Virus record (IMG/VR): IMGVR_UViG_3300025030_000339
Location: 1-29,851 of that record
DNA length: 29,851 nucleotides
From: a virus
Direction: 5' to 3' (one strand)
Shown piece by piece: positions 4,395-29,102 of this stretch. Below the pieces are notes generated by a model that had not been told where the DNA came from, ran no database searches, and worked only from the letters and a program-made list of their open reading frames with translations. Position numbers and translations under genes: made by a program. Each line of letters opens with the position of its first letter. Within the stretch, counting starts at the first letter, position 1.

Positions 4395-5752
4395 CCCGTC
4401 TGGATCTCGTGCGCGCCGTGGACTATGTGCCGACGCCGACACAGGCGACGTTCCTCCGCGATCGGACGCCGACTCGGCTGCTCTGTGGAGGGCTCGGGTC
4501 GGGCAAGACGCTAACCGGCGCGTGGGCCGCGCTGGCGGCCGCGTTGGAGAATCAAGGGCGCGGCGACGGGATGCTCGTCGCCCCGAGCTTCCCGATGCTC
4601 GATCGTCTCGTGCTCCCAGCCTGGAAGCGCGTGGTCCCACGCGAGTTGATCCGCGCGCACAGGAAGATCGAGCGGCGGTACATCCTCACAACTGGGGACA
4701 GCGTGTGGTACGGCACGGCCGATGTGCCGGCCTCGCTCGAGGGGACAAATCTCGCGTGGTTCTGGGGCGACGAGGTGCGCTACTGGCCGCTCGCCTCGTG
4801 GCAGAACATGATCGCCAGGGTACGAGTGAGGGGTGCACGGTCGCTCCAGAGGATCGCGACCTCGACGCCAGCGATGGGCTGGATGTCGGTTGTCTTCGAG
4901 CGAGGCGTAGCCGATCGTCGTCTCACCCGGATCTCGACGAGGGAAAACGCGCCGAACCTGGATCCGAGTTACATCCCGACGCTCGAGGCTGCGCTGAGCC
5001 CGCGGCTCGCGCGAGCGCTGATCGAGGGTGAGTTCGTCGTGCTCGAGGGCGCGGTGTACGCGGAGGAGTGGCAGCCCGAGCGCAACGTGATCACGTGGGA
5101 GCACGACAAGCGCTTCATCACGTGGCTCTCGATCGACTTCGGCGCGCGCCGCCCAAGCGTGCTGCTGGCGCAGCAGGTCGGTGACACGCCGTGGTGGGAC
5201 CACAGAACCGGACGGCAGTTCGCGCCGCACGCGCTGATCGTGCTCGACGAACTCCACCCTGACGAGTGCCCGACGATGCGGCTGATCCCGCGAGTTCGTG
5301 AACTGCTCGCCGGACGGCGGGTGGACCAGATCGCGTGTGATCCAGCAGGCGCAGCGAGAGACCAGGCGAGCGGGCTCGCCAGCGTCGAGCTGCTCCGCGC
5401 CGAGTGGGGAGACATCGTGCGCTACACCTCCGACCCGCTGGACACGTCGATCCCCGCAGGGATCGATCGCGTGCGCGGCGCGCTGTGTCCCTCCGACGGG
5501 AGCCCGCCGCGGCTCTACGTCGAGCGGCGGCTCGCGCGAGCGGACGCGAGCTATCGAGGGCTCGTGAAGGCGCTCGCCGGGTACGCGTACCCGGTCGAGC
5601 GTGACGGACGACAGGTGAGCGATCACCCGGTGAAGGACGGGACCTACGAACACGCGATGGACGCGCTGCGGTACCTCGTGACAAACTCGCAGCCTCGCCC
5701 CGGCGGCGAGGGCCGCGTGTACTCCTACTCGTGGGGCGGTGGTGGCGGCTGA
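4391..5752 (+). CDS. terL: Terminase large subunit (ATPase and nuclease)
   Basis: The 453-residue protein contains an ATPase domain with Walker A GGLGSGKT (33-40) and a Walker B-like LAWFWGDE (121-128). The C-terminal RNase H-like nuclease has the expected acidic residues: D249 in SIDFG, D317 in ACDPAG and D424 in HAMDALRY. It pumps DNA into the procapsid through the portal and cuts the concatemer. It is slightly short but complete for the family and ends in a glycine-rich tail. The GTG start overlaps the terS stop (GTGA). Confidence 0.94.
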   Translation: MTRLDLVRAVDYVPTPTQATFLRDRTPTRLLCGGLGSGKTLTGAWAALAAALENQGRGDGMLVAPSFPMLDRLVLPAWKRVVPRELIRAHRKIERRYILTTGDSVWYGTADVPASLEGTNLAWFWGDEVRYWPLASWQNMIARVRVRGARSLQRIATSTPAMGWMSVVFERGVADRRLTRISTRENAPNLDPSYIPTLEAALSPRLARALIEGEFVVLEGAVYAEEWQPERNVITWEHDKRFITWLSIDFGARRPSVLLAQQVGDTPWWDHRTGRQFAPHALIVLDELHPDECPTMRLIPRVRELLAGRRVDQIACDPAGAARDQASGLASVELLRAEWGDIVRYTSDPLDTSIPAGIDRVRGALCPSDGSPPRLYVERRLARADASYRGLVKALAGYAYPVERDGRQVSDHPVKDGTYEHAMDALRYLVTNSQPRPGGEGRVYSYSWGGGGG

Positions 5753-5761
5753 GGGCTGGAC

Positions 5762-6148
5762 ATGGGCGATGTGATCCGCATGGGCGAGGCACGAGCGAGA
5801 GGCACGGCCGCGGCGGTGCAAGGGCTGACCCTCGAGGCGCTCGAGTCAGAGGGTCGGCCGCAGCGTGGGATCGATCTGCGGATTGAGCGGAACACGGCGC
5901 AGCAGCGAGTGCTGCTCGCGACGACGCGATGCCCCGCGTGCGGGACGCGGGGAGGCTGCGGGATGGTTCTCCCTCACGACAGCGGGCTCCTGTCGGAGAG
6001 GGATGCGGCGAGGGTCCTCGCCGGCATCTGTCGCAACGCGGGCGCCGCGCTCGGCGTTTGGCTCGCGCAGACGTGCGAGAGCCACCAGTCGGGAGCACCG
6101 AAGAGTCACGCGCCTGCCGAGGATCCCGCGCCCGGTGGTGATGTATGA
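5762..6148 (+). CDS. Hypothetical protein with CxxC motif
   Basis: This 128-residue protein lies between terL and portal and matches no family I recognise. It has a CPACGTRGGCG segment around residues 57-67, which could be half of a zinc site, and two further cysteines at about 90 and 105. The C-terminal 20 residues are Pro/Ala-rich and probably disordered. Position suggests a packaging or portal accessory role, but nothing in the sequence proves it. Its stop overlaps the next ATG (ATGA). Confidence 0.6.
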   Translation: MGDVIRMGEARARGTAAAVQGLTLEALESEGRPQRGIDLRIERNTAQQRVLLATTRCPACGTRGGCGMVLPHDSGLLSERDAARVLAGICRNAGAALGVWLAQTCESHQSGAPKSHAPAEDPAPGGDV

Positions 6149-6297
6149 GCCTGGACGAGGCGATCGCGGTGTACCGGATCGAGGACCCGCGGCCGACCTC
6201 GACCAGGTGGCGGAGGACCCGCTGCCTCGCGCTGAGGCTCGGCTGGTGGATTCGACGACGAGCGGATAGGCTCGTGCTCTGGGCTCTCTCTCCGTAG
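6145..6297 (+). CDS. Small basic hypothetical protein, translationally coupled
   Basis: This 50-residue ORF begins in an ATGA overlap with the previous gene and ends 13 nt before the portal ATG, filling an otherwise empty gap. It is rich in Arg and Trp (TRWRRTR, GWWIRRRADR) with a short hydrophobic C-terminus. No family is recognised. The coupling and exact fit in the gap support translation; the short length keeps confidence modest. Confidence 0.45.
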   Translation: MSLDEAIAVYRIEDPRPTSTRWRRTRCLALRLGWWIRRRADRLVLWALSP

Positions 6298-6310
6298 AAA
6301 GGTGACGCTG

Positions 6311-8215
6311 ATGGTCGACTCGCTCCCCCGCGTGCTGCGCTCCCTCTTCGGTGGGCGCGAGACGACGGAGGAGCAGGTGCAGATCCCGATCTCGCTGCCC
6401 GCGCCCTACTCGACGCCGCAGCGCTGGATCGCACGCGCACAACTCGCGTGGCCTCACGACTACGCTGCGCAGGTGGACACGGCGCTGCGCTACCTGCGGG
6501 GGCAGCACCTGCGCGACACGACGCAGTGGCTCCGCGAGCACTACGGGGACTCGGCGCAGTTCATGACGCCGGCCGTGATCTCGGTCTTCCGGCGGGTCGT
6601 GCTGGAACTCGCTCGCGTGTACGGACAGGAGGGCGAGGAGTTCCCTCTCCTGTCCGAGGGCGAGGGCGAGGTGGACCCGCGGCAGGCCGACCTCTGGTCT
6701 CGAGTCCGAGTCGGCTGCGAACTCGATCGCAAGCTCAAGGAACTCGAGCGGCACACGGTCGCAGCGAAGCGGATGTTCGTTCGCGTCGGGTGGAACTCGC
6801 GTCTCGACGCGGTGCGGCTCACGCTCTTCTCGCCGACCAGCGTCTTCCCGATCTGGATCGGCGGCGACGACCGGCACCTCTCATCTGCGAGCGGCGTGCT
6901 GCTCGCGATCGAGCCGACGTACGACGAGCAGGGCAGAGCGATCGAGCGGTGGGAGTTCTGGTCAGCGGAGCGGACCTTCACGATCGATTCGCGCGGGCGG
7001 GTGGACCTCGGAACGATCGAGGCCGCAGACGGATCGGTGACGCCGTCGGCAGAGAATCCCTACGGGCAGATCCCGATCGTCGCCTTCGCGGCCGACGAGC
7101 AGGACACCGCCGGCTACTACGCGCTCCCGGACGAGCAGCTCCTCAGCGCTCAGCGCGTCGTGAACGCCGTGGCGAGTGACATCGTCCAGACGCACAGGCA
7201 GCAGGGGTACGGGCAGCTGTACACGGAGACAGTGCCGGGCGAGGCGCCGGGTGACTGGGCAGCGTCGACCTCTGTTGGCCCGAGGACAGGCCGTGATCGG
7301 GGCGCCGCGCAGGGCCGGACGATCCGGCTCGGACCGACTCGGATCGTCGACGTGCCGAGAGGCAGGCGGCTCGGGGTGCTCGCGTTCAACGCCGACGTTG
7401 AAGGCGGCGTGCGGCTCCTGCACTCCTACCTGTCCGACGTGATCACGTCGGAGGGGCTGCCTCCCGGGAGCGTGCTTGCGGACTCGAGAACGGCGGCGAG
7501 CGGCACCGCGCTGCTCGTCGAGCGCCAGCCGCTCACCGAGGCGCGTCGTGATCTCGTTGAGATCATGCGGCCTTCGACGCGCGAGTTGCTCGAGCTCGTG
7601 CGCCTCGCCTGGAATACGCACCGACCGACGGAGCAGTTGCGGCTCACGCCCGACTGGGTAGAGGGCACGCCCACGCCACCGATCTCGCGCGAGGAGAGGC
7701 GACGTGCGGACGAGGTGGACGTGAGGCTTGGGATCGAAAGCCCCGTGACGATCGTGATGCGCGACCGCGGTCTCGAGCGCGAGGCAGCAGTGCGCTACGT
7801 GGCCGAGCGACAGGCCGAGGGCGCCGGAGGCAGGAGCCTCGCTCGCTTGCTCGAGGAGCTGCTCGGCGAAGCGAGCGACGGTGCCGACGTCATTTCCGCA
7901 GAGAAGAAGGACATCTACGCCTACGAGGTCGAGGGCGGGATCTTCACGATCGACGAGATCCGCGGGGCCAAGGGCTGGCCGCCGCGGGCCGAGGACGGCC
8001 AGCTGACGGTGCCGCAATACCGAGCGAAACACGTCGAGGAGATGGCGCTCGCGACGGTCGCGACAACGGGTGGAGGGGCCGAGAAGATTCTGCGACTGCC
8101 CACAGTAGAGTCGCCGGCTGTCGCTGTCCCTGCCGGAGGCGGGTTGCTCGCAGCACAGGTCTCGGCCCCCACGGTCAGTCCGCTGACACAGGCCCGCGGT
8201 GAGGAGAAGACGTAA
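6311..8215 (+). CDS. Portal protein
   Basis: The 634-residue protein is called portal from length, position directly after terminase and before a Mu gpF-like gene, and sequence character. Supporting segments are ENPYGQIPIVAF (typical portal 'NPYG.IP' turn, about residue 247), LLSAQRVVNAVASDIVQTHRQ (portal-like helix) and TAASGTALLVERQPL, which resembles the 'SG.AL' helix of portals. It would form the dodecameric DNA channel at the capsid vertex. ATG 6311 is chosen because GAAAGG lies 8 nt upstream (6297-6302). GTG 6302 is in frame but lacks a site. The last 60 residues are Ala/Pro/Gly-rich. Confidence 0.85.
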   Translation: MVDSLPRVLRSLFGGRETTEEQVQIPISLPAPYSTPQRWIARAQLAWPHDYAAQVDTALRYLRGQHLRDTTQWLREHYGDSAQFMTPAVISVFRRVVLELARVYGQEGEEFPLLSEGEGEVDPRQADLWSRVRVGCELDRKLKELERHTVAAKRMFVRVGWNSRLDAVRLTLFSPTSVFPIWIGGDDRHLSSASGVLLAIEPTYDEQGRAIERWEFWSAERTFTIDSRGRVDLGTIEAADGSVTPSAENPYGQIPIVAFAADEQDTAGYYALPDEQLLSAQRVVNAVASDIVQTHRQQGYGQLYTETVPGEAPGDWAASTSVGPRTGRDRGAAQGRTIRLGPTRIVDVPRGRRLGVLAFNADVEGGVRLLHSYLSDVITSEGLPPGSVLADSRTAASGTALLVERQPLTEARRDLVEIMRPSTRELLELVRLAWNTHRPTEQLRLTPDWVEGTPTPPISREERRRADEVDVRLGIESPVTIVMRDRGLEREAAVRYVAERQAEGAGGRSLARLLEELLGEASDGADVISAEKKDIYAYEVEGGIFTIDEIRGAKGWPPRAEDGQLTVPQYRAKHVEEMALATVATTGGGAEKILRLPTVESPAVAVPAGGGLLAAQVSAPTVSPLTQARGEEKT

Positions 8216-8434: not shown

Positions 8435-9076
8435 GTGGCCCGGGTGGCCGATATCGAGGCCGAGGCGCTCGACATGCTTCGGCTGCGCGTGCTGGCGCTG
8501 CTCGATGGGGCCACGCCGCGCAACGCGGTGGCACGGATCGACGCAGTCGAGGACGCACTGCTCCGCGGCTACGACGTGCTCCTCGAGGCAGTGATCGCCG
8601 AGGTGGCGCGAGAGTTAGTAGAGTGGGACCTGCCGACGGCGGCTGTGGCCGAGACGAGCGCAGCGCTGAGGCAGGCGCGATTGCACGTTAGAGACGATGT
8701 GGAACGGTACGCGCGCGAGGCGAGGGGCACGCCGAAAGATCAGGGCGGCCCGCTCGCGGGGCTTCAGCGGCTCGCGACGAACGGGATGGGCCTCGTCGAC
8801 ACCGCGCTGATGGCGGCCGACCGCGCGGTCTCGATCGCGCAGGCCGAAGCGACAGGGATCGAGTGGTGGCTCTACGACGGGCCGGTGGACCAGCGGACGC
8901 GCGACGATTGCCGGGCGTGGGCCGGGCATCGGTTCACCTCGGCACAGGTCGCATCGCTGAAGAGCCGGGCAGGTCCGCAGCCGCCGAGCCTCTACGGAGG
9001 CGGCTGGAATTGCAGGCACCGATGGGCGCCTCTCGACGAGAGCGAGCTCGCGCAGTATCCGCCGTGGCCGGGCTGA
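8435..9076 (+). CDS. Phage Mu gpF-like head morphogenesis protein (minor head protein)
   Basis: The 213-residue protein has the family's C-terminal signature. A YDGPVDQRTRDDCRAWAG segment (147-164) is followed by a PPSLYGGGWNCRHRW segment (183-197): a conserved Asp, TR, Cys, then G-x-N-C-R at the end. The N-terminal 140 residues are helical. Mu gpF/SPP1 gp7 proteins bind the portal and are packaged as minor capsid components that help head assembly or DNA ejection. Its place right after portal is the normal one. GTG 8435 is the first start after the previous stop, and GTG 8444 is also possible. The upstream open frame (from about 8255) overlaps another gene and looks non-coding. Confidence 0.85.
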   Translation: MARVADIEAEALDMLRLRVLALLDGATPRNAVARIDAVEDALLRGYDVLLEAVIAEVARELVEWDLPTAAVAETSAALRQARLHVRDDVERYAREARGTPKDQGGPLAGLQRLATNGMGLVDTALMAADRAVSIAQAEATGIEWWLYDGPVDQRTRDDCRAWAGHRFTSAQVASLKSRAGPQPPSLYGGGWNCRHRWAPLDESELAQYPPWPG

Positions 9077-9579
9077 TCGCCGAGCAATACGCGGGGCACC
9101 TCGCGGCCGGCTACCCGGACGGGTGGACGCAGCATGGCGCGCAGGCAGCGCGCTTCCGGGCGGCGCTTGATCTACTGAGCAGATGCGGGATCGCGCTCGA
9201 CGGACGAACGCTGCACGATGCCGGGTGCGGGACGGGGGCGCTGCGAGCGTGGCTCCCGGATGGCTGCGAGTGGATCGGCACGGACGCGCGCGCTGGGATG
9301 GCCGGTGTGCGGCTCGACCTTCTGACCGGCGCGATCCCATTCGCGGACGTGACGGTGGTGAGCGGGACGCTCGCGTTCCACTCGACCGAGGCGGCGCTCG
9401 TGCTGCTCGGTCGGCTCTGGAGATCGACCGAGGCGGCGCTGGTGCTCAACCACGCGCCGGGGCTCGGGTCTGAGCGAGCGAGGATCGAGCGGTGGGCTGC
9501 ACTGCACGGGCTCGCCGCGACGGCCTGCGGCTACACGGGTTCGGATCGGACCTGGCTCTGCGTTAGGGACAGGGGATGA
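9064..9579 (+). CDS. Class I SAM-dependent methyltransferase-like protein
   Basis: This 171-residue protein has motif I DAGCGTGALRAW (52-63) after a beta strand and an acidic residue ending strand 2 (WIGTD, D74), the usual SAM-binding pattern. A typical DPPY/NPPY catalytic motif is absent, so a DNA N-methylase is not supported. The motif IV region reads VVSGTLAFHST. The substrate is unknown. A near-exact repeat of STEAALVL (107-114, 121-128) reflects a 42-bp offset DNA duplication at 9382 and 9424. GTG 9064 overlaps the gpF-like end by 13 nt. ATG 9022 is an in-frame alternative. Finding such a gene inside the head module is unusual. Confidence 0.7.
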   Translation: MAGLIAEQYAGHLAAGYPDGWTQHGAQAARFRAALDLLSRCGIALDGRTLHDAGCGTGALRAWLPDGCEWIGTDARAGMAGVRLDLLTGAIPFADVTVVSGTLAFHSTEAALVLLGRLWRSTEAALVLNHAPGLGSERARIERWAALHGLAATACGYTGSDRTWLCVRDRG

Positions 9580-9626
9580 CGTGCTCGCCTCTGCTGGTGT
9601 ACCGTGCGCGCGAGGAGGTAGACGAG

Positions 9627-10214
9627 GTGGCGAAGATCCGCGTGAGTTGGCGCTTCCCCGACGGGACCGACGTAGATGCCGTGATGACCCGCGTGATGAC
9701 CCGGATGGGCACACACGCGCGCAGCCTGATCGTGCGTCGCACCGGGCAGGGCCGCGGGATCGACGGACTCCTCGCGCCCTACTCGGCCGGCTACCGGCTG
9801 GCGAAGGCGGCTGCTGGCAGATCGCCGGCGCTCGTGGACCTCACGCTCTCGGGGCAGATGCTCCAGGCTCTCACCGTACTGCGCGTGACGCCGCGCCTCG
9901 CGACGCTGGGCTTCCGTCCCCTGCGTCGGAGGAAGGTCACGCTTGCCGCGCGCGGCCGGAAGTTCGTCGTGTCGGACCTCGAGACGCGGCGCAGCTCGAG
10001 GCGGAGGGTAGTCGCGAAAGCCAAGGCCACCACGTCGGCGGCCGCCGTGGTGAAGAACGATGAGCTCGCGCGGATCCATCACGAGGGACTCGGACGCATG
10101 CCCGCGCGGCCGTGGTTCGGCTTGTCGGATCGCGAGCGGCGCGAGATACTGGAGATCGGTCGCCGCGAGTCGCAGACGGCCATGGCAGCGAAGGGCCCCG
10201 CAGGGGGGTGGTGA
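9627..10214 (+). CDS. HK97 gp10 / Mu gpG-like virion morphogenesis protein
   Basis: The 195-residue protein resembles head-tail joining or tail-completion proteins. It has a DLTLSGQMLQAL segment near the middle and ends with NDELARIHHEGLGRMPARPW and FGLSDRERREI. The 'IPARPFLGLSD' type ending is shared by phage virion-morphogenesis proteins. The family stabilises tail ends or joins head and tail. Two starts are good. GTG 9627 has a perfect AGGAGGT at 9613-9619 with 7-nt spacing. ATG 9576 overlaps the previous stop (ATGA) and has AGGG 7 nt upstream, giving 17 more residues. The first is preferred because those extra residues look unlike the family. Confidence 0.68.
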   Translation: MAKIRVSWRFPDGTDVDAVMTRVMTRMGTHARSLIVRRTGQGRGIDGLLAPYSAGYRLAKAAAGRSPALVDLTLSGQMLQALTVLRVTPRLATLGFRPLRRRKVTLAARGRKFVVSDLETRRSSRRRVVAKAKATTSAAAVVKNDELARIHHEGLGRMPARPWFGLSDRERREILEIGRRESQTAMAAKGPAGGW

Positions 10215-10220
10215 GAGCAG

Positions 10221-11486
10221 ATGGCCTCGTCGAAAAAGTACGCGATCCTCTGCCTCGACGGTGCGGGCGCGCCGCTCACCGGGCTCACCCCCTCGTGGAC
10301 CGCGTACTGGAACTTGTTCGACAATTCGAGCGACGGGAGTCCGCCGACGATCACGGAGGTCGGAGGCGGGATCTACGTCTTCGACGCGGCGCTGATCGCA
10401 GATGGAGCACGGGCGGGCGTGATCGACTGCGGCGCCACGGCAGCGGTCGTGCTCGTCGCCGGGCAGAGCGGCGGGAGCGCGCGGTACGCGATCTGGCAGG
10501 GGCGCTACGAGGATCGCAACGCGGCCGCGGACGTGTGGGGCTACGCGACCCGTGAGCTGACCGGCCTCGATGTGGGCGCCGACGTGTGGGGCTACGGCAC
10601 GCGCACGCTGACAGCGCTGGACGGCACTCCGGCGGCCGACGTGTGGGCTGCGACGACTCGCGCGCTGACGAGCAGCGGAGACGACGCGGTCGCGACCGCG
10701 GTCTGGGCCGCCGTGGCCCGCACGCTGACGGACTTCTCCGACGTGTGGACGGCGGCCTCGCGCACGCTGACGGCGAGCGGCGTGACCGCGATCTGGGCGG
10801 CGGCCTCGCGCACGCTGACGGCGCAGTCGCTCTCCGGGCTCGGCGCCGAGAGCGTGAGCGTGCAGTTCACCGACGGCAGCTCTGGGGTCCAGGGCGCGCT
10901 GGTGCTCGCGATCAACGGATCGTCCGAGCTAGTCGCGGCGCAGCTCACCGACGGCGGCGGAAGCGTGTCGCTCCTGCTCGACGCCGGCGCGTACACGCTC
11001 CTCGCCACCAGGCCGGGCTACCAGTGGGCCGAGACGGCGGTCACCGTGTCGAGCCCGGACACGATCTCGACCTCGACGATCGCCGGGAGCGCGCTCACCG
11101 CGGGGCAGTTCGCGCAGGTCGGCGTGACGCGATCGGTGTCCTGCTCGGCGAAGACGCGAGGCGCGAGGATCGAGAACATCTCGCAGGGCGACGTGCTCAC
11201 GCTGACGCGCACGGTGACCGGCGTTCCGGACGGAACGACGATCAGCTCGGCGGTCGTGCGCTTCGGATCGTTCGCCGAGAAGCGCACGGATCTGAGCGTG
11301 GCGGCCACGGTCACCGACAGCGGAGCGGACGGCACAGGCGTGATCACCTTCGCGCTGACGGCGGCGTACACGCGCGGCTTTCAGCCGGGGCAACCAACCG
11401 ATTACCAGCTGCGCGTGGTCCTCGCGAGCGGGACCGAAGTGCTGGTCGAGGACGGCGTGATCGTCGTCGACCCGGAGATCGACTGA
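10221..11486 (+). CDS. Virion structural protein with VW-TRTLT repeats and Ig-like domains
   Basis: The 421-residue protein starts with a domain of about 95 residues (ILCLDGAGAPLTGLTP). Six imperfect repeats follow at about 104-200, each built on [ADV]VWxxxTRTLT. Beta-rich Ig-like segments then run to the C-terminus. Similar VW-A-TRTLT repeats occur in phage surface or fibre-like proteins, so a head-decoration or adhesin role is inferred. The repeats also show at DNA level: a roughly 24-bp identical block at about 10752 and 10800. It is upstream of the co-chaperonin and scaffold, which makes a head-associated location more likely than tail. Its stop shares a base with the next ATG (TGATG). 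Confidence 0.6.
   Translation: MASSKKYAILCLDGAGAPLTGLTPSWTAYWNLFDNSSDGSPPTITEVGGGIYVFDAALIADGARAGVIDCGATAAVVLVAGQSGGSARYAIWQGRYEDRNAAADVWGYATRELTGLDVGADVWGYGTRTLTALDGTPAADVWAATTRALTSSGDDAVATAVWAAVARTLTDFSDVWTAASRTLTASGVTAIWAAASRTLTAQSLSGLGAESVSVQFTDGSSGVQGALVLAINGSSELVAAQLTDGGGSVSLLLDAGAYTLLATRPGYQWAETAVTVSSPDTISTSTIAGSALTAGQFAQVGVTRSVSCSAKTRGARIENISQGDVLTLTRTVTGVPDGTTISSAVVRFGSFAEKRTDLSVAATVTDSGADGTGVITFALTAAYTRGFQPGQPTDYQLRVVLASGTEVLVEDGVIVVDPEID
10530..10820 (+). repeat. Tandem coding repeats (VW-TRTLT units)
   Basis: Six degenerate tandem units encode the VWxxxTRTLT motif. The last two share a long identical block (gcggcctcgcgcacgctgac) about 48 bp apart, suggesting recent unit duplication or gene conversion. 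Confidence 0.8.
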
Positions 11487-11773
11487 TGAGGCTGCGCGAG
11501 TTCCGGATCTACGGCGACCACGTCCTCCTGCGTGTCGAGGAGGAGTCGGTCGTCACCGCGGGCGGGATCGTGATCCCGGAGCAGGCGCGGGAGCGACGGC
11601 TGTCCGGCGAGATCGTGGCGGCCGGTCCTCGAGCGCCCGACTGGGCCCGCCCCGGGCTGCGCACGCTCTACGAGCGCTACGCCGGGAGCGAGGTCGTCTT
11701 CGACGACGACGAGAGCGTCGTGCATCTTGTGCTGCCTGGCGACCAGCTCGTACCCGTCGAGGTGGTCCTCTGA
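11486..11773 (+). CDS. GroES-like (Cpn10) co-chaperonin
   Basis: The 95-residue protein has the size and order of GroES. An initial strand with a basic residue (YGDHVLLRVEEES, residues 9-21) is followed by the mobile-loop signature AGGIVIPE (25-32). Then come SGEIVAAGP (40-48), a charged middle, GSEVVFDDDE (67-76) and a final strand LVLPGDQLVPVEVV. GroES caps the GroEL ring; phage versions such as T4 gp31 replace it so that the large capsid protein can fold. Here it lies directly upstream of scaffold and major capsid genes, so capsid folding is the likely job. The mobile loop GGIVIP fits the hydrophobic GroEL-contact motif. The ATG overlaps the previous stop by one base. Confidence 0.85.
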   Translation: MRLREFRIYGDHVLLRVEEESVVTAGGIVIPEQARERRLSGEIVAAGPRAPDWARPGLRTLYERYAGSEVVFDDDESVVHLVLPGDQLVPVEVVL

Positions 11774-11886
11774 TCATGGGCTTGCGTTGCTGCGGCGCAA
11801 TCGCGTAGGCTTGCGCCGTTCGTCAGCCGGGTGCTGGCGAGCAGGAGCCTGATCGGGCCTGGAGCCCGCGGGCGAGGGAGCAGGAC
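11774..11886 (+). promoter_or_regulatory. Intergenic leader before scaffold/capsid genes, weak promoter candidate
   Basis: This 113-base gap is one of the longest on the + strand. TTGCGT (11782-11787) and TAGGCT (11806-11811) lie 18 bases apart, each 3/6 to consensus. The 8-mer GGCTTGCG is directly repeated at 11779 and 11808. A scaffold ribosome site (AGGGAG, 11875-11880) precedes GTG 11887. A strong late promoter for the capsid genes would make sense here, but the match is weak. Confidence 0.25.
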
Positions 11887-12564
11887 GTGACCGAGGAAGC
11901 GAAGAAGACGGAGCAGGCAGCGAGCGGAGCGACAGGTGCGCCCGCGGCGCCCGCGGCGCCCGCGGCGCCCGCGATCGGATCTCCCGCGACCGGAGATCCG
12001 GCGACGAACGGAACGCAGGCGTCCAAGGTCTTCGACGAGACCTACGTGAGGGGCCTCCGGGAGGAGGCGGCGAAGCACCGGGTCGCCGCAAGCGAGGCGC
12101 AGAAGAAGCTCGACGCGATCGCGGCCGCGGAGAAGCTGGCGACCGACAAGCTCGCGCTCGAGCAGGGCCGCTGGCAGGACGTCCTCAAGAGCAAGGAAGA
12201 GGCGCTCGCGAGCGCCCAGCGGGATCTCGACGCGGCGAAGGCCCGGGCGGCCATCGCCGACAGGTACGACGCGGACGCGAGCGCGAAGGCGAAGGCGCTG
12301 GCGGACAAGCTCGGAGCCGCCGCGCCGAGCATCGACGGCCTCGACCCGAGGCTCGCAGTCTCGATCCTCGAGAAGTTCGAGGCGGTGACGACAGGGCAGA
12401 AAGTTCGGACGTCCGCCGGCAACCCGGTGGCGCCCGGACAGCAGAAAAAGGATCCGTGGGATCTGACCACGGACGAGTTCGCCGCGCTCTCGCTCGAGGA
12501 GCAGGCGGCTGCGTCGCGCGCCGTGAGGATGCGCGGCGTCACGCATCCTCGACCGAAGCTCTAA
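11887..12564 (+). CDS. Capsid scaffolding protein
   Basis: The 225-residue acidic, Ala/Glu/Lys-rich protein has a disordered N-terminus with APAAP repeats from a 9-bp GCCCGCGGC tandem (about 11940-11975). The segment FDETYVRGLREEAAKHR (49-65) is the characteristic entry to the long coiled coil of phage scaffold proteins, and the coil continues to about residue 125. The C-terminus has DPWDLTTDEFAAL and a basic end (HPRPKL), in line with a coat-binding tail. It would direct procapsid assembly and then leave. Position just upstream of the major capsid protein supports the call. GTG 11887 has AGGGAG 6 nt upstream. Confidence 0.85.
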   Translation: MTEEAKKTEQAASGATGAPAAPAAPAAPAIGSPATGDPATNGTQASKVFDETYVRGLREEAAKHRVAASEAQKKLDAIAAAEKLATDKLALEQGRWQDVLKSKEEALASAQRDLDAAKARAAIADRYDADASAKAKALADKLGAAAPSIDGLDPRLAVSILEKFEAVTTGQKVRTSAGNPVAPGQQKKDPWDLTTDEFAALSLEEQAAASRAVRMRGVTHPRPKL

Positions 12565-13992: not shown

Positions 13993-14177
13993 GTCGCGAG
14001 GCGATCGACGAGATGTTGCGCGGCGTGAAGCGCCACGCCGATCGCGTGGGCAAGTCGCTCACCGAGCGAGAGCTGCGCCGCGAGGTGGTCGACCCGATCC
14101 GGCAGTTGGAGCGGGAGGAGCGGCACCATGGCGATCGCGACTACCGCGAGGGCGAGCGAAAGAACAAGCTGCGCTGA
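13989..14177 (+). CDS. Small charged hypothetical protein
   Basis: A 62-residue, highly charged, helical ORF (EAIDEMLRGVKRHADRVG, ELRREVVDPIRQLERE) starts in a GTGA overlap with the previous gene. Its amphipathic helix could bind nucleic acid or a partner protein. No family is recognised. Its 3' end contains a GGAGGAG that resembles a ribosome site for the next frame. Confidence 0.5.
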   Translation: MSREAIDEMLRGVKRHADRVGKSLTERELRREVVDPIRQLEREERHHGDRDYREGERKNKLR

Positions 14178-14211
14178 GCGCGCTGACAGCGCGGGCGCGA
14201 AGGAAGAGACG

Positions 14212-16539
14212 ATGCCGACGATCACGAAGAGCCGTATCCTTCGCACGCTCACGGGAGTGGGCGTCGTCGCGCTCCTCGTGGGCGCGGCGCCGACGGGCGA
14301 CTACACCCGGCACGACGATCAGCAGTACTTCGTCGGCGCCGTGAACATCGACGGCACCGTGACCACGGCCGGGAGCACGAGCGACTTCGTCGTGGTCGCC
14401 GGAGACGACGCGTCGATTACGGGCACCGACGACGTGTCGCTCGAGCACGGCTCGACGAACTCGATCGTGAACATCGCGACCGCGCTGTTCGCGGCCGACG
14501 TGAACATCGGCAACGCCACGGGCGTCACCGACGTCGACATCACGGCGGGCACCGGAGGAGTGACCCTCCAGTCGACGACCACGGGCGACGTGACGCTCGA
14601 CCCCTCGGACGATCTGCTCTGCACGGTGGCCGACGACGAGACGCACACGATGGAGTCGGCGTCCGCCATCTTCTCCGTGACAGGGACCGCGGGCTTCTCG
14701 ATCAGCCTCGGCACCGACGACACCACGGCGGACACGATCGCGATCGGCAGCGCGAAGGACGACGTGGACGTCGACGGCGAAGACATCCAGTTCGAGAGCG
14801 CCGACGACACGCACTTCCTCTCGACATCGGCAGGGGGCATCTTCAATTTCGGTACGGGCGCCAACGGCTACATCTTCAACTTCGGTACCGACGACACGCT
14901 GGCCGACGACATCAACATCGGCTCCGCGCTCGACGACGTGGACATCACGGGAGCCTCGTCGTTCGTCGCAGGCACGGGCGACCCGCTGACGATCACGGGC
15001 AACGCGGCGAGCACCTGGAGCACCACGGCGGGCGACCTCATCCTGAGCGCGGATGCCGCGAGCGTGACCATCACGGGCAACGAGGCGGCCGCGGGGCAGG
15101 TGGCGCTCTCGGCCACCGGGGTCATCGCGGGCAACGCGATGACCCTGGCAACCAGCGACGGAGGGATCTCGGTCGCCGCGAGCGGGTCGGTGAACGGGGA
15201 CCTGATGCTGAGCGCCGCCGACGACGCGACGCTGAACGGCGGGAGCGCCGGGTCGCTCATCACGATCGGCGGGAACACGCAGGGTAACGTGCTGAACGTC
15301 TGCGCGGACAACACGACGGCCGACGACATCAACGTGGGGTCCGCGCTCGACACGGTGGCGATCACGTCGAGCGTGTGGAGCGTCGACGACAACGGCGCTT
15401 TCTCGGGTCTCGGCGACCTGACGTGCGCGACAGGGCTGACCGGCGGGTGGGATCTCTCCTGCGCGGCGAGTGCGGCGGCCACGCCTGGCCAGTCGATCGA
15501 TCTCACGGGGCAGGCTGGCGGCACGGCGGCGACGGACTCTGACGGGCAGGTGGGCGGCGCTGTGAGCGCGACCGGCGGCGTCGGCTCGGCGCTGAACGGC
15601 GGCGGCGCGAACGACGGCAGCGGCGGAGACGTCGTGCTCCTCGGTGGTGCGCGCGGCGGCGCGACGGGTTCGGCGGTACACGGGATCGTGCGCGTCGGCA
15701 ACCCGACCGTGAGCGGGACCCGAGCCACCGACTACCTCGCCGTCGGTGGCGGATTCGAGGTCGACGGAATCGCGCTGTTCGCCGGCTCCACGACGCTCGG
15801 AGACAATGCGGCCGACGCTCTGACGATCACGGGTTCCCTCTCGGATGTCAATTTCCAGACGGGTCTCGGTGGCGGCGCGGACATCGGGAGCGCCGCTGCG
15901 GCGGCCGACACGGCGGGGCAGTCGCTCGATCTGCTCGGGCAACTCGGTGGGGCGGCATCGACGGGGCAGGTCGGTCGCGCTGGTGGGCTGATCTCGATCA
16001 CCGGCGGCGCCGGCACTCCCAAGGATGGCGCCGGCGCGACGGATGGCGATGGCGGTGACGTGGTCCTCCTCGGCGGCGCGCGCGGAGGCACCACGGGAGG
16101 GACCGAGGTGCACGGGATCGTGCGCGTCGGCAGCCCGACCGTGGGATCGACGAAGGCAACCAACGTACTCGCGATCGGAGGCGCGCTCGAGGTCGACGGC
16201 GCCGCTCGATTCGACGGCGGGCTCGTGATGGGCGACACCTGCACGGGATCGGTCAGCGCCAATGCGGTCTCGTGCTCGGGCGCAAGCGGTGTGATCACGG
16301 ACGATGGCACCGACATCAATCTCGACGCGAGCAGGGCCGACATCACGTGGACGAACGCGAGGATCGCAGCGACCTCCGTGGTGCTGCTCACCGTCTGCGG
16401 CCCGACGCGGGAAACGAACACGAACGTCACAGCGCAGGTCGTGCCGGGCGCGGGCACCGCGACGCTCCAGGTTCGGAACACCGGGACCGCGAATTTCACC
16501 TCGGCCGGCCTCATGCTGTGCTTCCTCGTGCTCAACTAG
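14212..16539 (+). CDS. Long repetitive beta-rich protein with export-signal-like N-terminus (possible fibre/adhesin)
   Basis: The 775-residue protein begins with a basic then hydrophobic segment (KSRILRTLTGVGVVALLVGA, residues 6-25), resembling a Sec signal peptide. The rest is Gly/Thr/Asp/Ala-rich with recurring DDTxADxIxIGSAxDDVDI-type units and no long helices, fitting a beta-solenoid or fibre. Residues about 426-533 and 569-676 are a tandem duplication with offset 143 residues (429 bp), each containing VVLLGGARGG and HGIVRVG. A C-terminal beta domain has two Cys. ATG 14212 has AGGAAGAG 4-10 nt upstream. ATG 14128 is in frame, also with GGAGGAG, adding 28 residues but overlapping the upstream gene. 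Virion fibre is the inferred role; a secreted protein is also possible. Confidence 0.6.
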   Translation: MPTITKSRILRTLTGVGVVALLVGAAPTGDYTRHDDQQYFVGAVNIDGTVTTAGSTSDFVVVAGDDASITGTDDVSLEHGSTNSIVNIATALFAADVNIGNATGVTDVDITAGTGGVTLQSTTTGDVTLDPSDDLLCTVADDETHTMESASAIFSVTGTAGFSISLGTDDTTADTIAIGSAKDDVDVDGEDIQFESADDTHFLSTSAGGIFNFGTGANGYIFNFGTDDTLADDINIGSALDDVDITGASSFVAGTGDPLTITGNAASTWSTTAGDLILSADAASVTITGNEAAAGQVALSATGVIAGNAMTLATSDGGISVAASGSVNGDLMLSAADDATLNGGSAGSLITIGGNTQGNVLNVCADNTTADDINVGSALDTVAITSSVWSVDDNGAFSGLGDLTCATGLTGGWDLSCAASAAATPGQSIDLTGQAGGTAATDSDGQVGGAVSATGGVGSALNGGGANDGSGGDVVLLGGARGGATGSAVHGIVRVGNPTVSGTRATDYLAVGGGFEVDGIALFAGSTTLGDNAADALTITGSLSDVNFQTGLGGGADIGSAAAAADTAGQSLDLLGQLGGAASTGQVGRAGGLISITGGAGTPKDGAGATDGDGGDVVLLGGARGGTTGGTEVHGIVRVGSPTVGSTKATNVLAIGGALEVDGAARFDGGLVMGDTCTGSVSANAVSCSGASGVITDDGTDINLDASRADITWTNARIAATSVVLLTVCGPTRETNTNVTAQVVPGAGTATLQVRNTGTANFTSAGLMLCFLVLN
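15487..16240 (+). repeat. Tandem duplication within the fibre-like gene
   Basis: Two diverged copies, about 15487-15810 and 15916-16240, are offset by 429 bp. They share the encoded motifs GQS-DL-GQ-GG, GGDVVLLGGARGG and VHGIVRVG-PTV, plus a V-E/L-VDG-FDG end. Confidence 0.75.
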
Positions 16540-16546
16540 CTCACGC

Positions 16547-17350
16547 ATGCGCACCCGTCTCGCCATCGCGCTGCTGCTCGCTCCGCTCGCTGCTCACGCG
16601 GCTGCCTCGGTGGCAACCTACGAGGCCATCCGTGGGCGCGCGTCAAAGACGGTGCGCGTGCAGGGCTACGACAGCGCGGTGGCCAGCGGGACCTACGTTC
16701 TGATTCACCCGCTCTCGACGACGGCCGTCCAATTCCTCACCACGGCGGACGAGTTGATCGTTGCGGCTGGAGGCAACGCGAACGACGCGACGGCGGGCAC
16801 CGGGTGCCGCGAGATCACGTTCTGCGGCCTCAACGATTCGTGGGCCGAGGTGTGCGAGGCCGAGGCGACGGCGGGAGCTTCCGCGTCGACGAAGACGACC
16901 GCGAAATTCTTCCGGCTCCACTACGCCTACTGCTCCTCGAGTGGCACGGCGCACGCGGCGAACACCGCGGCGATCTCGATCACCACCGAGGGCGCGGTCG
17001 CGATCGCATCGATCGAGGCTGGGCTGGGCCGCACGCGGCAGGCGCTCTACACCGTGCCCGATGGTTGGACCGCGTACCTCCGGGCCGTGCGCGTGAGCGT
17101 CGACGCCGGGACCTCGGAGGCGGACCTTCGGGTGCTCTCCGCTGGCGATCAGAGCGACGTGACAGCGCCGGTCGCGAGCCCGCAGATCGTCGATCAGCTC
17201 GTCGACGTCTCTGGCTCGGTCGAGCGCGTGTACGAGGTGCTCCCCGAGCTCACGGAGAAGAGCGACGTCTGGGTCGAGGCCTCCGGTGCGGGCGGGGCCT
17301 CGGAGGTGGCGGTGCTCCTCGAGCTGTTGCTCGTGCAGGATGCGCAGTGA
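16547..17350 (+). CDS. Structural-type protein with N-terminal signal peptide
   Basis: This 267-residue protein has a textbook signal sequence: Met-Arg-Thr-Arg, a hydrophobic core LAIALLLAPLAA and a probable cleavage after AHA (residues 16-18). The mature part is beta-rich with paired cysteines (about 86/91, 101, 125) and a TRQALYTVPDGWTAYLRAV segment seen in phage structural proteins. It follows the fibre-like gene by 7 nt with no Shine-Dalgarno site, so it probably relies on coupling. A virion protein with a signal peptide is unusual, since assembly is cytoplasmic. It could instead be an exported accessory protein. No family is named with confidence. Confidence 0.6.
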   Translation: MRTRLAIALLLAPLAAHAAASVATYEAIRGRASKTVRVQGYDSAVASGTYVLIHPLSTTAVQFLTTADELIVAAGGNANDATAGTGCREITFCGLNDSWAEVCEAEATAGASASTKTTAKFFRLHYAYCSSSGTAHAANTAAISITTEGAVAIASIEAGLGRTRQALYTVPDGWTAYLRAVRVSVDAGTSEADLRVLSAGDQSDVTAPVASPQIVDQLVDVSGSVERVYEVLPELTEKSDVWVEASGAGGASEVAVLLELLLVQDAQ

Positions 17351-18496: not shown

Positions 18497-19747
18497 ATGG
18501 CCTTCAGTCCATTCGCGATCCGCAAGGTGTTCGTCAACCCGGAGTCGGCATTCGCTTCCTCGTCTGCGACCGAGGGCGACTACATCCGGGTGCCCGTGGT
18601 CAACCCCGACTGGAAGCCGACAGAGGGGACGATCGAGCGAGCGGTAGCCCAGTCGCGGCTCACGAGCCACTCGGCGATCGTCGGTCGCAAGGGCGGGACG
18701 TTCACCTTCCGCGTTCACCTCGAGGGCCTCACGACGAACGACGGTGCGGCGCAGGTCACGGTGACTCCGTGGCTCGACGAGTGCCTGCTCGCGTGCGGGT
18801 TGACGAAGCTCGCGGGGACCGGCCTGGAGAAGACGGGCGTCGATTCGGACGCCGACGACGTGGTGCTCGCCTCGACGGCGGCCGCGAAATTCAAGCTCGG
18901 CGGGATGCTCGGCTACAAGCTCGACTCGGACGGGCTGCTCTACACGCGGCTGATCAAGCAAATCGCGACGACGACCGTGACGGTCAAGCCGCCGTGGACC
19001 TCTGGTAGCGCGGACCTCGACTCGATCGTGACGAGCGGCGGCGACCTCACGATCTTCTCGCCCGCGACCTACTGGGCGCAGGACGGTCTCGCCGCGCCGC
19101 TCGGCAACGGTGTGATCTCGGACCCGGGCACGGTGTCGTTCGTGGTCGTCGGCTCCGGCTACGAGTTCACGCTCAAGGGGTGTCGCGGCAACGTCAAGCT
19201 CCTCGGCGAGGGCGAGACGGCGATGCTCGAGTTCACCTTCCAGGTGTGCTCGTTCGCGACGAGCTCGCTCGCCCCCACCGCGTCGATGCCGACGGCGAAG
19301 ACCTCGCTGACGCTGCCCGGCAACGCCAAGGTTTGGTGGGGCGACGACGTCGCAGCAACAGCGGACACGATCCCCTGTCGTGACGTGGCCTTCGATTTCG
19401 GCGTGCAACTCGCGGAGAAGGCCGCAGATCAAGGCACCGAGGGGCGTGCTGGCTGGGCGGTCACCGGGCACAAGCCCGTCGCCTCGTTCAAGCCCTACTG
19501 GGACACCGCGTTTCTGACGGCGAAGAGCGCGGCGTCTGCGTACCTCTTCGCCTTCCAGATCGGTACCTCGCCGACGAACTGCGTCTCGGTCGGGCTCAAC
19601 AAGGCGCAGATCGTCGACTACCCGGCGCCCGAGGACCTCGGCGGACTCGTCGGGCAGTCGATCAACCTGACGGCCGTCGACGCGGGCACGGCCACGCTCG
19701 ACGGCACGGCGACGCAGATGCCGGACGCCGTGATGTGCTTCTTCTAG
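18497..19747 (+). CDS. Major tail tube protein
   Basis: The 416-residue protein is called from position, length and beta-rich sequence. It comes after the likely tail terminator and before the tail-assembly chaperone pair. It contains SFVVVGSGYEFTLKGCRGNVK and GETAMLEFTFQVCSF segments. Motifs such as VPVVNPDWKPTEGTIERAV near the N-terminus are typical of siphovirus tail tube proteins with duplicated domains. It would polymerise into the tail tube. GAGAGG at 18484-18489 is the ribosome site for ATG 18497. Its TAG stop is within a small palindrome holding the next gene's ribosome site. Confidence 0.75.
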   Translation: MAFSPFAIRKVFVNPESAFASSSATEGDYIRVPVVNPDWKPTEGTIERAVAQSRLTSHSAIVGRKGGTFTFRVHLEGLTTNDGAAQVTVTPWLDECLLACGLTKLAGTGLEKTGVDSDADDVVLASTAAAKFKLGGMLGYKLDSDGLLYTRLIKQIATTTVTVKPPWTSGSADLDSIVTSGGDLTIFSPATYWAQDGLAAPLGNGVISDPGTVSFVVVGSGYEFTLKGCRGNVKLLGEGETAMLEFTFQVCSFATSSLAPTASMPTAKTSLTLPGNAKVWWGDDVAATADTIPCRDVAFDFGVQLAEKAADQGTEGRAGWAVTGHKPVASFKPYWDTAFLTAKSAASAYLFAFQIGTSPTNCVSVGLNKAQIVDYPAPEDLGGLVGQSINLTAVDAGTATLDGTATQMPDAVMCFF

Positions 19748-19760: not shown

Positions 19761-20261
19761 GTGCTTGGATTCGACTACGCGGAGACCGAGAAGTTCGTTC
19801 TCGACGACTTGCCGGCGGTTACTTGGACCGTGGGGGCGATCCCGTACGGGAAGCTCGTCGCGATCGAGGCCGCGCTCTGGCCGCTCGACCAGGAGGCCGA
19901 GGCGCTCCGCCGTACCAGGCGCATGGCCACCGACGCGGAGGCGCTGACGCTGACGGCTGAGGACCTCGATGCGTTCGTTGCGCTCGGCCGCAGGCAGGAG
20001 CCCATCCGCGTCGAGCTCGTGCGGTGGTCGCTGCGCGACGTGAGCACGAGGCCGGGGGAGCTGGCCTTCGTCGAGGAGACCTTCGCGGGCGAGACCTACC
20101 GGGTGCTTCGCCGCGAGCATGCGGAGGCCTTCGCTCGTCCGGCGTCCGGGCTGCTACTCGCGCGGCTGGCGAGCCGAATCCTCGCCCTCCAGCGCCCCAG
20201 CGTCGAGGATCTGCTGGGTTTCACGCGGCCGCGCACGGAGAGCCCCTCCACCTCGACGTGA
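19761..20261 (+). CDS. Tail assembly chaperone, gpG-like (upstream frame)
   Basis: The 166-residue protein lies between tail tube and tape measure genes, the place of lambda G. It is helical, as expected of the family, with ILALQRPSVEDLLGF near its C-terminus. A canonical slippery heptamer GGGTTTC lies at 20216-20222 near its end, in the right phase for a -1 shift. The ribosome site AGAGGAGGT is very strong and lies in a 5-bp hairpin (19746-19759), which could limit initiation. It binds the tape measure protein during tail assembly (family role). Confidence 0.75.
   Translation: MLGFDYAETEKFVLDDLPAVTWTVGAIPYGKLVAIEAALWPLDQEAEALRRTRRMATDAEALTLTAEDLDAFVALGRRQEPIRVELVRWSLRDVSTRPGELAFVEETFAGETYRVLRREHAEAFARPASGLLLARLASRILALQRPSVEDLLGFTRPRTESPSTST
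20216..20222 (+). promoter_or_regulatory. -1 ribosomal frameshift slippery heptamer GGGTTTC
   Basis: The gpG-like frame reads G GGT TTC here (X XXY YYZ with X=G, Y=T). Slipping back by one gives GGG TTT and enters the overlapping frame, which stays open to 20581. Both the position near the gene's 3' end and the phase match the lambda G/GT mechanism, where the heptamer is GGGAAAG. Confidence 0.85.
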
Positions 20262-20581
20262 GCCGTGCGCGGCTGGACACACAGGATGATGTGCACCTCG
20301 GACTCGACGGACCGTGCATCTCGTGCCCCGCTCACCCGGACGGGTGCCCGCCGTCGGCCGTGCTCGCGGGCGTCGAGTATCGGCGCTGGCCGGGGCTCTA
20401 CGTGACCCCGCGCGTGCACACCTATCGGGCGCTACACCGCCGCGCGAGAGGCGGCGCTCAGCCGCTGACCGTCGGCTCTCTGTCGTGGCCGGCGCCGCTG
20501 GCGACCGCCTTCGACGTGCTCGATCACTACGCAGAGCAGGAGCGCGCACACCGGGAGGTCGCCCATGGGCAACGCCGGTGA
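20222..20581 (+). CDS. Tail assembly chaperone T-domain (gpGT by -1 frameshift)
   Basis: This is the downstream half of a frameshift fusion. About 154 residues of the gpG-like protein would be joined to 119 residues from this frame, giving about 273 residues. The frame has four Cys in a compact GPCISCPAHPDGC segment, then VEYRRWPGLYVTPRV and a helical, basic C-terminus. In lambda the T domain recruits tail tube subunits to the tape measure complex. Independent translation from GTG 20258 is possible (107 residues) but has no good ribosome site. It overlaps the tape measure gene by 17 nt, the usual layout. Confidence 0.7.
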   Translation, partial: HAAAHGEPLHLDVSRARLDTQDDVHLGLDGPCISCPAHPDGCPPSAVLAGVEYRRWPGLYVTPRVHTYRALHRRARGGAQPLTVGSLSWPAPLATAFDVLDHYAEQERAHREVAHGQRR

Positions 20582-22052
20582 GTTTCAATTCGATATAGGC
20601 GCGGACGGCTTTGGTCGGTTGCGTCAGGAAATGGCCGGGGCCAACGAAGCGGCGAAGAAGTCGACTCAGGTATTCAAGCGCGCGTTTGCCGCTGACGTGT
20701 TCGTGACCTCGCTCAGCAGGATCACGCAAGCTCTTGATGGGGCGGCAAAGCAAAGCATCGAGAGCGTATCAACGATCGCACAGGGCTTCCTCGTCGCAGG
20801 TCCGGCCGGCGGCGCGATGGCTTCGTTCAACGTGCTCGTCGGCGAGGGGATTCGTGCGTGGAAGGCGTACGCGGATGCGGCGGCCGAACCAATTCAGGCC
20901 ACCGCGGAGCAGATCGCGAACAGCGCGAAGGCCACTGCCGAATGGACGAAAAAGCTCCAGGACGTCAAGCGTGAGATCCAAGCGATCCGTCTCGCCGATG
21001 CTTCTGGAATCTCAGTCAGCCGCGCGCTCGGGATGCTCTCGACGGCAGAGGTGCAGACGGCGCTGGCGAATCAGGAGACCATGATCGCCGGCCTGAGGAG
21101 AAACCTCGCGGCGGCGAGAGAGGATGCGATCAAGCAGGCGGCTGCGCTTTCGTTCTTTTCTACCGATGATTTGACGCTCGCTAATGACATGGTGTCCTCT
21201 CGCAAGCGCGCCATCGCCGTTGCCGAGACAGCGAGGGAGACGCTGATCGCACAGGCGGCCCTACTCAGAGAGCAGGAGCGCAAAGCCCGAGTGGAAGAGG
21301 CGAATCGGATTCGCGAAGAGAAACGCGGGCTGATGTTCGATCTGGTCGAGATCGCTGGTGAGAGTGCGGCGCGAGAACAAGAGGCCAGAGCCGAAGCCGA
21401 GCTCGAAGAGGAAGCCGATGAGCGGTTTTTCGAGCAGCAGCGTGCGGCAGAAGCGATAGAGCGCGCACGAGCAGAAGAGGCTGAGTGGCAGCGCACGCTC
21501 GCGACGTCGGCGGAGGAGGAGCATCAACGCGCGATGGACCGCAACTCCGAGCAGGCTGCGGCCCGGTTCGGGATGTGGGCGCTGGAACAGGAGCAGCGAG
21601 CGCAGGCCGACGCGGATCACCTCGCGACATTCGAATCGGGGCTCGGGCTCGCGCGGCTAGCAGTCGATGTCGCCGGGGACCTCCGGGCGGAAAACGCCGA
21701 GGCCCTCAAGGGGCGCGCCAAGGAGGCCGCGTTCGAGGCCGCGTTCTACGCGGCCAAGGGGATCGCTGAGTTGATCTGGAACCCGCCCGGCGCGGTGGCA
21801 TCGTTTGTGGGCGCAGGAAAGTTCGCCCTGCTCGCAGCGACCTACGGGATCGGCGCATCGACTGCGCCCTCTGGTGGAGCGTCCGCCGGTAGCGGAGGGT
21901 CGGCCGGTGCTCCTGGTGGTCGCGGGGGCAGCGTGGGCGGTGGGCCAAGGACGATCGTGATCAACGCGGGGCAGGCGTTGACGACCACGGCAGACCTGGA
22001 GCTCCTGATCGCGCGCGCGAGTCGCGAGGGCGAACGCCGGTTGGGAGGCTGA
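20565..22052 (+). CDS. Tape measure protein (short)
   Basis: The 495-residue protein follows the chaperone pair and has tape-measure character. It has long helices rich in Ala, Glu and Arg (about 190-400), a hydrophobic segment near 60-95, a second hydrophobic stretch near 395-430 and a Gly/Ser-rich linker before the C-terminus. Tape measure length sets tail length, at roughly 0.15 nm per residue, so a tail near 70-75 nm is inferred. ATG 20565 has GGGAGG upstream. Its base composition is somewhat less GC-rich than its neighbours and has more TT-ending codons. Confidence 0.72.
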   Translation: MGNAGEFQFDIGADGFGRLRQEMAGANEAAKKSTQVFKRAFAADVFVTSLSRITQALDGAAKQSIESVSTIAQGFLVAGPAGGAMASFNVLVGEGIRAWKAYADAAAEPIQATAEQIANSAKATAEWTKKLQDVKREIQAIRLADASGISVSRALGMLSTAEVQTALANQETMIAGLRRNLAAAREDAIKQAAALSFFSTDDLTLANDMVSSRKRAIAVAETARETLIAQAALLREQERKARVEEANRIREEKRGLMFDLVEIAGESAAREQEARAEAELEEEADERFFEQQRAAEAIERARAEEAEWQRTLATSAEEEHQRAMDRNSEQAAARFGMWALEQEQRAQADADHLATFESGLGLARLAVDVAGDLRAENAEALKGRAKEAAFEAAFYAAKGIAELIWNPPGAVASFVGAGKFALLAATYGIGASTAPSGGASAGSGGSAGAPGGRGGSVGGGPRTIVINAGQALTTTADLELLIARASREGERRLGG

Positions 22053-28541: not shown

Positions 28542-29102
28542 ATGCTGCCAATCGATCGGATGACGCTCCGCGAGCGCGTGTGGGACCAGGCGCGGGCCCT
28601 CGGCTACGGGCTGATCGTCGCGATGCTTTGGCTCGTGCTCGTCGCCGGGCTGGCTCGAGCAGGCGCCACGGTGGATGAGCTGATCGAGCCTGCGACGGGG
28701 ACTGCGATCGTCGTGGGGCTCGACACGCCAACCGACATCGTGGGTTTCGTGCGCGAGATCCACGGTGCGGCGGTAGAGGGCGACTGGCGCGTGGTCGCAG
28801 GGCTCGTGCTCCTCGTGCTGATGGTCGCGGTCCGCCGCTTCGGGTCGCGGCTGCCCGGCCGGGTCGGCGCCTTCCTCGGCTCGCACCTCGGGGGCGCGAT
28901 CGCGCTCTGCGGGCTCGCGGCCGTCGAGGTCGTGGGGTCCGCGCTCGTCGGCGGGGCGCCGCTCACGTTCGACTTGGCGCTTCGCGTAGTGGAGAATGGC
29001 GCGATGGCCGCCGGGATCTGGCACGTCGCAGCGAAGCCGGCAGGCAAGCGGCTTCAGATCAGGCGCGCGGCTCGCACCGCGGCGAAGCTGGCCGCGCCGT
29101 GA
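28542..29102 (+). CDS. Multi-span membrane protein, holin candidate
   Basis: The 186-residue protein has at least three hydrophobic segments: about 21-41 (GYGLIVAMLWLVLVAGLARA), 82-97 and 115-138. A weaker one lies near 146-163. A basic tail ends the protein. Holins are often smaller, but three-span holins with this layout exist. It has GGAGAG upstream of ATG 28542 and lies in the lysis cassette. The stop overlaps the next GTG. Confidence 0.55.
   Translation: MLPIDRMTLRERVWDQARALGYGLIVAMLWLVLVAGLARAGATVDELIEPATGTAIVVGLDTPTDIVGFVREIHGAAVEGDWRVVAGLVLLVLMVAVRRFGSRLPGRVGAFLGSHLGGAIALCGLAAVEVVGSALVGGAPLTFDLALRVVENGAMAAGIWHVAAKPAGKRLQIRRAARTAAKLAAP

Follow-up and report, generated by a model that had tools for sequence, protein, structure and literature searches.

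Organization of the locus

The window (the whole stretch of DNA analysed, 29,851 nucleotides) is a 29.9-kb IMG/VR virus record from a phage of 69% GC content, carrying genes for a DnaB helicase, a terminase, an SPP1-like portal, a capsid protein and an amidase. Two overlapping reading frames, here termed TAC1 and TAC2, are placed between a tail protein gene, identified by homology to IMG/VR contig L089 and the tail family phrog_290, and an ORF assigned to the tape measure by position only. The features of this region, all on the + strand, are as follows:

18497-19747, +: probable major tail (tube) protein; its homologue at L089 1103-2026 matches phrog_290 (tail)
19761-20261, +: TAC1, putative upstream tail assembly chaperone ORF (G-like, 166 aa), with a GTG start, GGAGGT 6 nt upstream, coding signal in codon-position GC and remote TAC1 homology
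20204-20209, +: SD-like CGAGGA, probable 5′ stimulator, from its anti-SD duplex energy and the spacing in the family
20216-20222, +: slippery heptamer G_GGU_UUC, in phase
20222-20581, +: TAC2, putative T-like -1 extension (119 aa after the slip) with a CxxC...C motif, from the open frame, codon-position GC and hhalign
20226-20238, +: 5′ arm CGGCCGCGCACGG of a predicted 13-bp stem, with 11 Watson-Crick pairs from 20228
20258-20260, +: GTG overlapping the TAC1 stop (GTGA), possible alternative TAC2 start, with no SD at a spacing of 3-11
20263-20275, +: 3′ arm CCGTGCGCGGCTG of the predicted stem, partner of 20226-20238
20565-22052, +: ORF in the tape-measure position (495 aa), overlapping the end of the -1 frame

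The ORF at 20565-22052 gave no family match in Pfam, PHROGs or NCBIfam, and no profile match to the tape measures of the family described below. Elsewhere in the window, both strands of region 14059-16566 carry a very long open frame, of 803 aa (+) and 835 aa (-); the + frame has no family match. The protein encoded at 16304-17350 matches phrog_8198 (unknown function) and, over ~65-120 residues, Synechococcus phage proteins, some of which are annotated as virion or tail fibre.

An in-phase heptamer and an open -1 frame at the end of TAC1

The heptamer GGGTTTC was located at 20216-20222 on the + strand, where TAC1 reads GTC GAG GAT CTG CTG GGT TTC ACG, placing it in the X XXY YYZ phase (G_GGT_TTC); it ends 39 nt short of the last base of the TGA stop. 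The -1 frame was found to be open from 19961 to 20581, overlapping the next ORF (ATG at 20565) by 17 nt, and the predicted fusion comprises 154 + 119 = 273 residues. A first-pass annotation of this DNA had reported the heptamer in this phase about 40 bases before the stop, a -1 frame open to 20581 and past the start of the next ORF, and a fusion of roughly 273 residues; all three were confirmed. Analysis of GC by codon position indicated that TAC1 is coding in its own frame until the overlap, and that the -1 frame is coding from ~20240 to 20580.

GGGTTTC occurs three times in the window (1.1 expected), and XXXYYYZ heptamers in phase are scarce, with only 8 in the 7368 codons of called genes, 3 of which have A or T in the second triplet. 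The probability of an in-phase heptamer of the latter type within the last 60 nt of the gene was 0.003 when codon order was shuffled and 0.037 when the protein was kept and its codons were resampled. Because of this last value, the heptamer alone is suggestive rather than decisive, a pointer that is neither pure chance nor overwhelming. Its glycine codon, GGT, is the rarest glycine codon in the window (10.5%). A second in-phase GGGTTTC is present at 28742-28748 inside an unrelated gene (ORF 28542-29102), where the -1 frame stays open for 100 codons or more; it is probably a chance occurrence, indicating that the motif does arise by chance in this phage.

In E. coli, UUY codons in the A site are shift-prone, and R_RR.U_UU.Y is named as an efficient exception despite its mixed composition (PMC4066793). 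Searching the literature for phage frameshift sites with the sequence GGGTTTC yielded no relevant match.

A family of gene pairs with an in-phase heptamer

Direct searches using TAC1, TAC2, the 20565 ORF, an 866-aa tail protein, the tail tube protein and the portal returned no close relative in phage records and/or viral contigs, and genome contig scans with the capsid protein and TerL gave no match. The TerL search gave only a 99% identical fragment, IMG/VR contig L002, which ends before the tail genes. Positions 9017-12498 of this contig correspond to window positions 4391-7872, with the terminase 99% identical and the portal segment identical, indicating that this phage population is represented by two assemblies. 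A capsid family scan yielded 80 loci at 26-31% identity, whose tail genes could not be aligned; distant capsid similarity was seen to Goodmanvirus and Pelagibacter phages. Single-sequence AlphaFold models of the two putative chaperones had pLDDT values of 35 and 39, too low for further use.

A scan with the tail protein (18497-19747) identified one contig, L089, the tail protein of which is 26-31% identical to that of the window. Downstream of its tail protein gene, L089 contains two short ORFs followed by a tape measure gene matching tape measure families. The first short ORF ends CAA AAA AAC TGA, with A_AAA_AAC in phase, and the second ORF lies in the -1 frame. Matches to the second protein were found in Rhizobium phages L338C/RHph_I4, Agrobacterium phage JP1, Alteromonas phage P24 and Microcystis phage Mae-JY22, and a profile scan added 27 further IMG/VR loci, bringing those in the family to 28.

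All 33 family loci had A_AAA_AAC/A/G or G_GGA_AAC in phase, 3-30 nt ahead of the stop of the first gene, and the second gene was in the -1 frame relative to the first (33/33); these loci include near-duplicates or the same phage (L112 and L090), amounting to ~30 distinct sequences from several deep lineages, and L119/L120 and L122 are more doubtful members. The order tail protein, TAC1, TAC2, next large ORF is shared by the window, L089 and the Rhizobium, Agrobacterium, Alteromonas and Microcystis phages named above. The second proteins (L089-L122) share the motif CxxC...C...CP...GxLPxxGGxxxQPAK; the members scanned had no match in Pfam or PHROGs, and the four members tried had none in NCBIfam. 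Alteromonas phage P24 has no annotated gene at the position of its TAC2 match. The first-pass annotation had proposed conservation of the heptamer in related phages as a check, and this came out positive, with a canonical in-phase heptamer and a -1 second gene at every locus; the comparison covered remote relatives with heptamers other than GGGTTTC, as the searches turned up no close relative for the tail genes.

The window proteins as remote members of the family

We then asked how TAC1 and TAC2 of the window relate to this family, which was defined without them before testing. Neither protein gave a significant match to a chaperone family in the copies of Pfam, PHROGs and NCBIfam searched. 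With a first family HMM, the window TAC1 ranked only 7th of 1000; with an HMM of the larger family both window proteins ranked first of 2000, at 8-9 bits. Since these scores are low, hhalign was used together with controls. Window TAC2 matched family alignment A7 with a probability of 88.6, an E-value of 2.6e-6 and a score of 37.9, compared with 18.8 for the best of 150 shuffles and 16.1 for the best of 33 other window protein segments. Window TAC1 matched family profile A8 nearly end to end, with an E-value of 8.5e-4 (1.7e-3 in a rerun) and a score of ~25-26, the best of 150 shuffles reaching 18.1 and the best decoy among window protein segments 14.6. These E-values refer to single comparisons and each result is modest; both proteins match in the same order.

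The TAC1 alignment runs to RPSVEDL and ends just before the LGF slip codons. At this point the relatives read LxEEExKN, the last two residues of which are their slip codons, indicating that the window heptamer lies at the homologous place. Three of the four conserved cysteines of the TAC2 family align in the window, the fourth being replaced by a tryptophan before the conserved proline, and the GxLPxxGGxxxQPAK block is degenerate (GGAQPLTVGSLSWPAPL). The distance from the slip to the first cysteine is 31 residues in the window, compared with ~13-17 in core relatives. Taken together, profile comparison supports the assignment of both window proteins to the TAC family as remote members.

These data bear on whether the locus could be a single gene broken by a sequencing or assembly error, or a pair of unrelated genes in which a heptamer occurs by chance. 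The window is a single metagenomic record and GGGTTTC recurs in phase at 28742, yet the same split and -1 relation are found at 33 family loci and both window proteins match the family, making this explanation highly improbable.

Probable stimulatory elements around the predicted slip site

The SD-like CGAGGA (20204-20209) ends 6 nt before the heptamer and has an anti-SD duplex energy of -5.9. Hexamers of this kind, of -5.6 kcal/mol or stronger at a spacing of 5-7 nt, were found at 16 of 30 distinct family loci; at a random position of the window, the chance of one of -5.9 or stronger is 5%. Stimulators of this SD-like type figure prominently in dnaX and in an estimated 56% of IS elements, and the spacing quoted for -1 shifts is 9-14 nt (PMC5009743); counted to the A-site codon, the distance of CGAGGA is 10 nt. 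CGAGGA is thus a probable 5′ stimulator.

Downstream, 20226-20238 and 20263-20275 are predicted to form a 13-bp stem with one G-U pair, starting 3 nt after the heptamer (-29.9 kcal/mol for 20223-20282). The 24-nt loop (20239-20262) contains the TAC1 stop and GTG 20258. For positions drawn at random from this phage, a helix of 13 bp beginning 3-9 nt downstream had a probability of 0.0034, and one of 11 Watson-Crick pairs a probability of 0.0018. The strength of the fold is less distinctive: 5% of 60-nt windows of this GC-rich phage fold as strongly, and z-scores against shuffled sequence differed between segments (-3.1, -2.7, -1.1, -1.3). The spacer of 3-5 nt is short; in most close relatives of L089 a stem of ~12 bp starts 6-7 nt after the heptamer. 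The first-pass annotation had pointed to a small AGCCG-TGCG-CGGCT hairpin (20261-20274, -6.2 kcal/mol, 38 nt past the heptamer) as a possible stem; it is outcompeted by the better-placed 13-bp stem and was rejected as the stimulator.

In the family, an alignment of the stem from 15 distinct sequences had 92% of cells paired and 4 pairs with two-sided compensated changes, and pairing was destroyed when the partner was slid. None of 500 shuffles matched the percentage paired or the covariation score, and 44 of 500 matched the count of two-sided pairs. With an SD-like element, a heptamer and a stem, the family follows the plan of the dnaX cassette, and each of these elements is also present in the window.

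Probable frameshifting and its rival, re-initiation

The anatomy of the locus, the phase of the heptamer, the coding character of the -1 frame, the predicted stem and the family homology are shown by the analysis; slippage itself, its efficiency and the functions of the proteins are inferred. The best explanation, in which we have high confidence, is that programmed -1 ribosomal frameshifting yields a pair of tail assembly chaperones of the G/GT type. Most ribosomes would read ORF 19761-20261 to its TGA, yielding a short chaperone of 166 aa. A minority would meet G_GGU_UUC with tRNA-Gly in the P site and tRNA-Phe in the A site, slowed by the 13-bp stem in front and by pairing to the SD-like CGAGGA at their rear, and would slip back one base, GGT re-pairing to GGG and TTC to TTT (GGG UUU). 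Reading would resume at CAC (20222) and continue to 20578, giving a 273-aa fusion with the junction LLGF-HAAAH, the predicted junction peptide covering LLGFHAAAHGEPLHLDVSR. By analogy with lambda, the short form may coat the tape measure, and the C-terminal domain of the fusion may recruit major tail subunits. Points that weigh against this explanation are the recurrence of in-phase GGGTTTC at 28742, the segment-dependent z-score of the fold, the short stem spacer, the longer stretch from slip to first cysteine, the loss of the fourth cysteine and the presence of a GTG start.

Translational coupling is a serious and live rival: TAC2 would be a separate gene, re-initiated at GTG 20258 in the overlap with the TAC1 TGA, and the heptamer would be coincidental. 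Any NTGA overlap places the second gene in the -1 frame, so this relation is expected from coupling as well. The same overlap occurs at the window gene pairs 2197/2200, 4391/4394 and 13989/13992, and 4391 likewise has only a weak SD. Moreover, the 19 codons from GTG 20258 to the first cysteine are near the slip-to-cysteine distance of the relatives. Against this, GTG 20258 has no SD at a spacing of 3-11 while TAC1, 20565 and 22055 have strong ones, and none of the other three GTGA pairs has a heptamer in its overlap. At 12 of 30 distinct family loci, the TAC2 frame contains no ATG, GTG or TTG near the junction before CxxC, leaving frameshifting as the only ready route there. Re-initiation also leaves the heptamer, the SD-like element, the stem and their match to the family unexplained, and we consider it unlikely as the sole route.

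Somewhat more probable, while still improbable, is a sub-case that overlaps the preferred explanation, in which both routes operate and some free TAC2 is made at the GTG in addition to the fusion. Signals for both are present, but the GTG lacks an SD and sits in the loop of the predicted stem, and the lambda scheme has no free T domain.

The G/GT-like frameshift interpretation of the first-pass annotation is therefore supported by the 33 of 33 family loci and by the profile homology of both window proteins; it made no mention of the GTGA overlap at GTG 20258, which allows the re-initiation rival.

Comparison with known systems

Tail-chaperone frameshifting is widely conserved in long-tailed phages and is recognised mostly where the proteins or an annotator reveal it. 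A gene caller would report such a pair as two separate genes or miss the second, as in Alteromonas phage P24. The present case yields an HMM-ready family of ~30 distinct loci and a compact cassette for studying what SD and stem contribute at a Phe-codon slip site; it is also a likely instance in which the heptamer has turned over and the flanking signals have been kept.

In the lambda G/GT tail assembly chaperone frameshift (Levin 1993 and Xu 2004, as cited in PMC5009743), as in the window, a pair of overlapping ORFs occupies the interval from the tail tube gene to the position of the tape measure, and an in-phase heptamer stands close to the end of the upstream ORF; the -1 slip there, predicted in the window, gives short and long products with a common N-terminus. 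The heptamers differ (GGGTTTC in the window, GGGAAAG in lambda), the window proteins are not matched by tail-chaperone HMMs, and the window has an SD-like element, a long stem and a GTG for the second ORF. The E. coli dnaX cassette (PMC5009743) shares the SD-like element, an X_XXY_YYZ heptamer and a stem of ~11 bp, but it belongs to an unrelated gene, slips on A_AAA_AAG and gives a shorter product. Goodmanvirus (Microbacterium phages Goodman and Sucha) has a similar terminase-to-lysin gene order, an annotated joined chaperone, an in-phase CCCAAAA and remote capsid protein similarity, whereas its heptamer is different and its chaperones could not be aligned by BLAST to those of the window.

The TAC family (L338C/RHph_I4, JP1, P24, Mae-JY22 and the 28 IMG/VR loci) is like the window in gene order, -1 relation, place of the heptamer, SD-like spacing, 3′ stem, the TAC2 CxxC...C motif and remote profile homology of both proteins. 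It differs in using A_AAA_AAN or G_GGA_AAC, and in the window the stem is nearer the heptamer, the post-slip linker is longer and the fourth cysteine is lost. A_AAA_AAC is found in most relatives, in contrast to G_GGU_UUC in this 69% GC phage. On balance, we lean slightly towards the view that the window belongs, together with its relatives, to a widespread family of tail chaperones that is missing from the copies of Pfam, PHROGs and NCBIfam searched, and in which a dnaX-like three-part signal was kept while the heptamer was replaced, suggesting selection on the level of frameshifting rather than on heptamer sequence. Frameshifts of the G/GT kind are already known; the novelty here lies in the family and in a form of its signal that uses GGGTTTC.
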